This document shows, one piece after another, positions 1 to 2,216 of a DNA stretch of 64,000 nt. Made by a program: the position numbers and the translations under genes. Every line of letters starts with the position of its first letter. The stretch's first letter is position 1. The stretch comes from Sinorhizobium psoraleae. GTDB lineage: Bacteria > Pseudomonadota > Alphaproteobacteria > Rhizobiales > Rhizobiaceae. Where the stretch lies: the NCBI RefSeq assembly GCF_013283645.1, contig NZ_JABEKV010000001.1, forward strand, positions 1,644,246-1,708,245, in the 5' to 3' direction. Below the pieces are notes generated by a model. That model did no database searches, had not been told where the DNA came from, and worked only from the letters and a program-made list of their open reading frames with translations.

Positions 1-878
1 GTGCCGATCGCGAGCATGGCGACCACCGAGCCGACGCCGATGACGATGCCGAGCAGGGTGAGGATGGTGCGGAAGAGGTTGGCGCGGAGCGCCCGCATCG
101 CCATCTTCACCGCTTCGGAAACGTCGGCAATCGCGGCAAAGCCTTCGCGGGTGCGCTGGGCGAGGCCGATTGCCGCCTCCGGATTGCTGCGGCCCTTCTT
201 CGCCCGGTCGGCGACGATGCGGCCGTCGTGGATCTCGATCAGCCGATCTGCCTGCTCGGCGACTTCACGCGAATGGGTGATGACGATCACAGTGTGGCCG
301 TTCTCGTTCATCTCGCGCAAGAGCGCCATCACCTCGTCGCCGCTCTGACTGTCGAGTGCGCCCGTCGGCTCGTCGGCGAGGATTACGCGGCCGCCGTTCA
401 TGAGAGCACGGGCGATCGATACGCGCTGCTGCTGGCCGCCGGAAAGCTGGCTTGGCCGATGGTCGAGCCGCTCGCCGAGTTTGAGGGATTTCAGAAGCTC
501 CTCGGCGCGGTCGTGCCGGTCGCGCGCAGGCATTCCGGCATAGACGGCCGGCACCTCGACATTCTCCCTGGCGCTCGCGGTCGGGATCAGGTTATAGGCC
601 TGGAAGACGAAGCCGAAGGTGCGGCGGCGCAGCGCCGCGAGCTCGTCGCCATCGAAGCCGGAGACGCGTTCGCCATCGATCAGGTATTCGCCGGAGGTCG
701 GCTGGTCGAGGCAGCCGAGAATGTTCATCAGCGTCGACTTGCCGGAGCCGGACTGGCCGATGATTGCGACGAATTCGCCGGCCTCGATATCGAGCGAGAT
801 ATCGTGCAGCACCTCGACGGCGAGATCGCCGTTGAAATAGGTCTTGCTGACGTCCCGGAGCGAGAGGAGCGCGGTCAT
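1..878 (-). CDS. macB: MacB-type ABC exporter, ATPase plus start of permease (partial, 3' end outside window)
   Basis: Translating the minus strand from ATG at 878 gives an uninterrupted frame to the window edge (292 codons). Seen: Walker [10 protein letters not shown], signature LSGGQQQR, Walker [15 protein letters not shown] and H-loop VITHS, then after about residue 235 a linker leading to [21 protein letters not shown], the first membrane helix of a MacB/FtsX permease. MacB proteins join an N-terminal ATPase to a four-helix permease and use ATP hydrolysis to drive a MacA-TolC channel that exports macrolides, peptides or siderophores from the periplasm. The start lies 8 bp beyond the stop of the macA frame, so the two are co-transcribed. 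The C-terminal periplasmic domain and last three helices are not in view. Confidence 0.9.
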
Positions 879-886
879 GTTCGTGC

Positions 887-2216
887 TCAGAACATCGGCG
901 GCATGCGCATGCCGCGGGACCGCGTGTTGCGCGTGCCGCTGCCGGCCGAGGCGGTATCGACGACGACGCGGTCGCCTTCCTCAAGGCCGCTGACGATCTC
1001 GGCGCTGACGCGGTTGCGGATGCCGACCTCGACGGCGCGGGCTTCGGTTACGCCCGAGGGCGTGACCACGGTCACCTCGGCCTTGGCCGGCTTGCCGTCC
1101 GTGGCTTCGCCGTTCGCATGGATCGCCGCGCTCGGCACGACGAGCACGTCCTTGGCCGCAGCCTCGACGAAGAAGACCTGAGCGCTCATCGACATCATCA
1201 GCTCGCCCGTCGGATTGGGAACGTCGAAGAGGGCGTAATAGAGGACGACGTTGTTTTCCGTGTCCGGCATCGGCTGGATCTGCCGCAACTTGCCGGTGAA
1301 GCGCTTTCCGGGCTGGCCGAGCAGGGTGAAATAGGCGTCCATGCCGATCTTCAGCTTGCCGACATCAGCCTCGGAGACCTGCGCCTTCACCGTCATCGTC
1401 GAAAGGTCGGCGATGGTGACGATCGTCGGCGTCGTCTGGTTGGCGTTCAATCGTCGAAAGGTCGGCGATGGTGACGATCGTCGGCGTCGTCTGGTTGGCG
1501 TTCAGGGTCTGGCCTTCCTTGGCCGGATTGGCGACGATCGTGCCGGCCACAGGCGCATAAATCTTTGTGTAGCCGAGGTCGACTTTGTCGCCGGCGAGCG
1601 TCGCCTGCTGCTTGCGGATCTGCGCCTCGATCGCCTTCACGTCGGCGCCTGCCGCGGCATGGTCAGCGATCGCCTGATCCAGGGTCGATTGCGAAACGCT
1701 GTTGGTCGCGACGAGATTGCGCTGGCGCTCGATATTCGCCTGCTTCAGCACGAGCTGCGCCTTCTTCGAGATGAGCTGCGCCTCGAGATTGGCGAGCTCC
1801 GCCTGGTCGATCTCGATCCGGTTCTCGATCGTGGCCGGGTCGATTTCGGCGACAAGCTGGTTCTGTTCGACCTTGTCGCCGATTTCGACATGGAGCGATT
1901 TCAGCTGGCCGGAAACCTGCGCGCCGGCATCGACGGACTTGATCGCGTCGAGCGTGCCGACAGCGGTGACGCTGTCTTCGATGTCGCCGCGCGTGACGAC
2001 CTGCGTGATCATCGCGGTGGCGGGCTCGGACCCGTACTGGCTCCAGGCGTAATAGCCGGCGCCAAGGACGGCGAGGACCACGGGCAGGGCGATCCAGAGA
2101 CGCGAGCGGCGTTTCCGGCGCACCGGCGGCGGCGCTGCCGGGATCACGCGCACGTTGGCCGGGGCGGGTTTAAGCGCCGTCGTCTCGTCGCTGATCGTCT
2201 TGGCTGCCTTGCTCAT
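887..2216 (-). pseudogene. macA: MacA-type periplasmic adaptor, frameshifted by a 55-bp duplication
   Basis: The N-terminal frame starts at ATG 2216 with a cytoplasmic basic stretch, one membrane anchor (about residues 38-58), a barrel-sandwich half-motif and a coiled coil (Gln/Ala/Leu rich, about 115-195). It reads into EGQTLNANQTTPTIVTIADLS, then goes out of frame. The remaining 165 or so residues, from TIADLSTMTVKAQVSEAD to the C-terminus GMRMPPMF, lie in another frame that ends at 887. Deleting either copy of the duplication at 1395-1504 rejoins both parts into one ordinary adaptor of about 390 residues. Adaptors of this family bridge MacB and an outer-membrane TolC channel. As written the gene would give a truncated 283-residue product lacking the membrane-proximal domain. 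An assembly error is the main alternative. Confidence 0.88.
1395..1504. repeat. Exact 55-bp tandem duplication inside macA
   Basis: Two identical 55-bp units, 1395-1449 and 1450-1504, sit head to tail; the bases just outside differ. Since 55 is not a multiple of 3, the second unit shifts the reading frame of the adaptor gene. Each unit encodes, on the minus strand, roughly NANQTTPTIVTIADLSTI. Confidence 0.97.

Follow-up and report, generated by a model that had tools for sequence, protein, structure and literature searches.

An exact 55-bp tandem duplication splitting macA in a draft Sinorhizobium psoraleae assembly is very probably an untrimmed k-mer overlap

The 55-bp tandem duplication that breaks macA in the draft genome of Sinorhizobium psoraleae is best explained as an assembly artefact, namely an untrimmed k-mer overlap at a contig join (probability about 97%). 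The sequence analysed, referred to here as the window, is a 64,000-nucleotide stretch of scaffold C1 (C1:1644246–1708245). The two identical units that had been reported at positions 1395–1504 were recovered as a direct tandem inside macA (1395–1449 and 1450–1504); they are 100% identical, and the match covers exactly 55 bp, with no extension on either side. Since 55 bases correspond to 18 codons plus one base, the doubled unit breaks the minus-strand macA into two open reading frames (ORFs) in different frames. The features concerned are as follows.

1–878, minus strand: 5' portion of macB, which a 100-N gap truncates at the edge of the window (from the sequence and the alignment of C1 to the macAB loci of relatives)
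1–55, no strand assigned: sequence at the right border of the macB gap, repeated without change in the 55 bp to the left of the 100 N
887–1450, minus strand: C-terminal part of macA, a 187-residue ORF
1365–2216, minus strand: N-terminal part of macA, a 283-residue ORF with about its last 27 residues out of frame
1395–1449, no strand assigned: copy 1 of the 55-bp unit, an exact tandem repeat, with the same 55-mer present once on contig C34 (C34:614832–614886)
1450–1504, no strand assigned: copy 2 of the 55-bp unit, an exact tandem repeat, followed at 1505 by a mismatch between the two contigs (G in C1, A in C34)

The two ORFs align to residues 1–256 (ORF 1365–2216) and 238–423 (ORF 887–1450) of the MacA of the same relative, each with 98% identity. 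On the NCBIfam model NF008606 (length 371) for MacA, the periplasmic adaptor of the MacAB exporter, they occupy the consecutive positions 4–223 and 207–369 respectively, which bears out the frame shift proposed in the original prediction. The break in frame at the seam leaves each ORF, scored individually, short of the curated cut-off of 342 bits (195.2 and 162.4 bits as assembled), in contrast to the intact MacA of a relative (L070), which scores 347.5 bits. Pfam matches of the two ORFs to HlyD-type adaptor domains agree with the MacA assignment. Alignment shows that C1 is collinear with the macAB loci of relatives, with macA followed by macB. The MacB of a relative passes the Pfam MacB_PCD cut-off (159.1 against 27), and its best NCBIfam match is the MacB model NF007826 at 691 bits, under the cut-off of 966. 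A 100-N gap inside macB (C1:1644146–1644245) lies immediately to the left of the window, and the window alone gives no basis for the statement in the original prediction that macB shows no decay.

The length of the unit coincides with the k of the assembly, which comprises 7,427,611 bases in 67 contigs. The 45 unmasked contigs have 90 ends, of which 87 were compared (all except the 3' ends of C65, C66 and C67); the 22 small contigs (under 3 kb), which are fully masked, lay outside this comparison. All six exact dovetail overlaps between contig ends are exactly 55 bp long. Among 13 contig-end pairs with identical ends, 10 share exactly 55 bp, two share 56 and one shares 105. Between end sequences and other places in the fetched DNA of this assembly there are 114 exact matches of at least 31 bp, in a count in which one end pair may enter from both sides; 85 of these are exactly 55 bp, 12 are 56 bp and five are 57 bp long. 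Such lengths are characteristic of a de Bruijn graph assembly at a final k of 55, and the macA unit has exactly this length. According to PMC5481147, SPAdes at default settings chose k values of 21–55 on test reads, and Unicycler trims the overlapping contig-end sequences that SPAdes creates. SPAdes is likely to have been the assembler here.

The macA 55-mer occurs once more, within a macA-like fragment on C34. Over 873 aligned positions this fragment is 82% identical to the macA of the window together with the sequence upstream of it. Exact identity between the two loci stops at 1505 on one side; on the other, to the left of the unit, macA on C34 gives way to an HWE histidine kinase gene encoded by the opposite strand. 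The match to C34 is exactly 55 bp for copy 2 and 56 bp for copy 1, the extra base arising only because copy 2 starts with the base that also follows on C34. The unit is thus the exact stretch shared with the second macA, bounded on both sides as expected of a branching node, and the edges of the duplication are the points where the two macA copies diverge.

These observations can be accommodated by a simple sequence of events. A de Bruijn graph with a final k of 55 would have been broken at the 55-mer common to the C1 macA and the diverged macA on C34, and both contigs meeting at the shared node would have ended in the full 55-mer. Joining them into scaffold C1 without trimming of the overlap, a step that we infer from the product, would then have written the 55-mer twice and shifted the frame. 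Copy 1 would represent the terminal 55-mer of the contig bearing the C-terminal side of macA, and copy 2 the same terminal 55-mer from the contig bearing the N-terminal side, each marking a putative contig boundary; copy 2 is most likely the untrimmed k = 55 overlap. Both halves are 98% identical to the MacA of the same relative, and the right partners were therefore joined. The real macA most likely contains one copy of the unit and is intact in the living strain. An untrimmed k-mer overlap explains together that the unit length equals k, that the unit ends where the paralogue diverges and that the same pattern recurs in other genes. The macA case resembles such an overlap: a sequence of length k is exactly duplicated where two loci have a node in common, contig ends show the same k-mer length, and several cases occur within one assembly. 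No difference was found, some of the joins here containing 100 N and others being blunt. No description of exactly this artefact was found among the papers listed by literature searches, and the available portion of PMC9296850 does not describe it. A search on macAB in Sinorhizobium/Ensifer likewise yielded nothing relevant.

Sister cases are present in the same assembly. The DNA fetched from it amounts to 1,385,875 bases (1.39 of 7.43 Mb; 1,349,829 non-N) and is weighted towards contig ends. A scan of this DNA for near-complete exact tandem copies with periods of 20–300 returned 11 rows: period 55 accounts for five, and periods 27, 30, 45, 110, 117 and 151 for one each. Four are two-copy perfect duplications of period 55 (C1 macA, C8:6444, C45:8911 and C45:10513), and in all four a 55-mer of the unit is also present at another place. 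The C8:6444 unit recurs at C8:1430, and the C45:10513 unit equals the first 55 bases of contig C2 (C2:1). The C45:8911 unit, shifted by one base, has exactly 55 bp in common with groEL-like sequence on C2 that stops at the edge of an N run (C2:135265). At C45:8911–9021 (L099), a Cpn60/GroEL gene is split by the exact duplication in the same manner as macA, its two ORFs covering positions 1–361 and 332–489 of 490 in Pfam Cpn60_TCP1. At C8:6444–6553 (L040), the ORF just after the duplication matches a short-chain dehydrogenase (adh_short, positions 105–185 of 195); the 92-residue ORF across the duplication matches no Pfam family at an E-value of 0.001.

Of 24 N runs in the fetched DNA of this assembly, 22 have flanks that do not overlap, which was counted against an artefact. 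The other two, the macB gap next to the window and C23:1130456, have flanks that overlap by exactly 55 bp each. The macB gap, with these flanks, marks another k = 55 seam in the operon that contains macA. With a unit as long as k, an exact match of that unit to a second locus and sister cases elsewhere in the assembly, the assembly error, one of the options raised in the original prediction, is the one that the analysis strongly supports.

The relatives point to a single copy of the unit. The macA comparison set consists of the genus and of named relatives, with the species itself represented by one strain. Among the 33 genomes of the genus set, which include the present one, 27 match positions 1250–1650 of the window and six do not. 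In 25 of the 26 matching relatives the match is full-length and spans 341–346 bases, versus 401 in the window, as expected for one copy of the unit; the remaining relative (G022) has a match of 57 bp only. A tblastn search with the MacA of a relative gave one uninterrupted alignment at each of the 25 full-length genus loci (starting at residue 17 in one of them); on the window, the same search produced a pair of alignments in different frames, both with about 98% identity. The second set comprises 54 loci from named genomes and overlaps in part with the genus set (the L233 and G028 loci encode the same MacA). One continuous alignment was obtained for 44 of these (L195–L238), weaker alignments for two distant loci (L239 and L242), and none at an E-value of 1e-20 for the other eight. 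The closest macA among the named relatives, from which the genus was judged to be Sinorhizobium/Ensifer, is that of Sinorhizobium sp. 8-89 (L233).

Control DNA from relatives (510,008 bases in 28 pieces) contained no perfect tandem copy of period 55; this control is mostly contig interior, in contrast to the end-weighted sample of the assembly itself, and the two are thus not strictly matched. Tandem rows were found in six of the 28 pieces, with periods of 54, 56 and 59 present. On C34, at 617304–617531 (L003:12305–12532), a 55-bp repeat is present in about four copies; this array is the fifth period-55 row of the scan, and the period-110 row is part of it as well. Since natural repeats with periods of about 54–59 occur in the genus, a period of 55 alone proves nothing. 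A natural repeat of this kind was considered for macA and rejected, as the macA unit is coding and is found only in the two macA genes (C1 and C34).

A real, very recent tandem duplication that inactivated macA in the strain would also produce an exact repeat, a shifted frame and two halves that are otherwise well conserved, all of which are observed. Such an event would not be expected, however, to place both of its edges exactly where the C1 and C34 macA genes diverge or to have the length of the assembly k, and the three sister cases likewise argue against it. We consider it very unlikely. As an option of the original prediction it gained no support of its own, and the related loci examined never show two copies. 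Also doubtful in the extreme, and given about half that weight, is a join between halves of two different macA genes, with the doubled unit marking the seam. The second macA fragment on C34 does have the same 55-mer, but both halves in the window are about 98% identical to the MacA of the same closest relative, to which the C34 fragment is only 82% identical, and the gene order on C1 agrees with that of the macAB loci of relatives. A chimera of the paralogues at the join was rejected, both halves matching the same relative equally well.

A reversible switch, in which slippage or recombination changes the number of units and turns macA on or off, is the least probable of the readings considered. 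An exact coding tandem repeat with a length that is no multiple of three could in principle switch, and phase-variable tandem repeats of contingency loci share these properties. The macA case differs from them in having only two copies, in one assembly only and at an assembly node, and typical contingency repeats do not resemble a two-copy repeat of 55 bp. Copy number is constant among the genus and named relatives examined: 25 of 25 genus loci are uninterrupted, and a perfect tandem duplication of 20–300 bp was found at none of the 54 named-genome loci. The on/off switch suggested originally is left without support of its own, and switching driven by slippage was rejected for this lack of variation. 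The related proposal of a genuine duplication, with macA switched as a single 55-bp unit is gained or lost, perhaps by exchange with the other macA copy in which the unit occurs, carries about the same very slight weight as the join of two macA genes.

The chief value of the untrimmed overlap in macA is as a warning on draft assemblies. The genes that look broken at 55-bp contig overlaps here are macA, the Cpn60/GroEL gene, the short-chain dehydrogenase-like gene and, at an N gap, macB. Before a pseudogene or phase variation is called from such drafts, the length of the unit should first be compared with the assembly k, and the unit should also be checked for at contig ends and in other loci.

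The C34 locus has a further irregularity. At C34:614886/614887 (L003:9887/9888) the macA-like fragment abuts the HWE histidine kinase gene with no gap. The kinase gene is without about the last 24 residues present in a relative (G017), and macA and the kinase gene are far apart in four relatives (G005, G008, G016 and G017). This junction may be a false join made during scaffolding. The 55-mer bordering it on the kinase side is present at no other place in the fetched sequence and does not end any fetched contig. Neither the second half of the C34 macA fragment nor that of the neighbouring kinase gene was found in the unmasked sequence of this assembly, the one exception being a 237-bp stretch resembling the end of macB (88%; C12:2569–2805). 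The missing halves may lie on the 22 fully masked contigs.

Two other observations concern the assembly at large. The contamination estimate of genome G000 is 4.03%, second to that of G025 (5) among the 33 genus genomes. A 151-bp tandem repeat at C34:16405–16783 (L074) contains three consecutive tRNA-Asp (gtc) genes with an identical anticodon.
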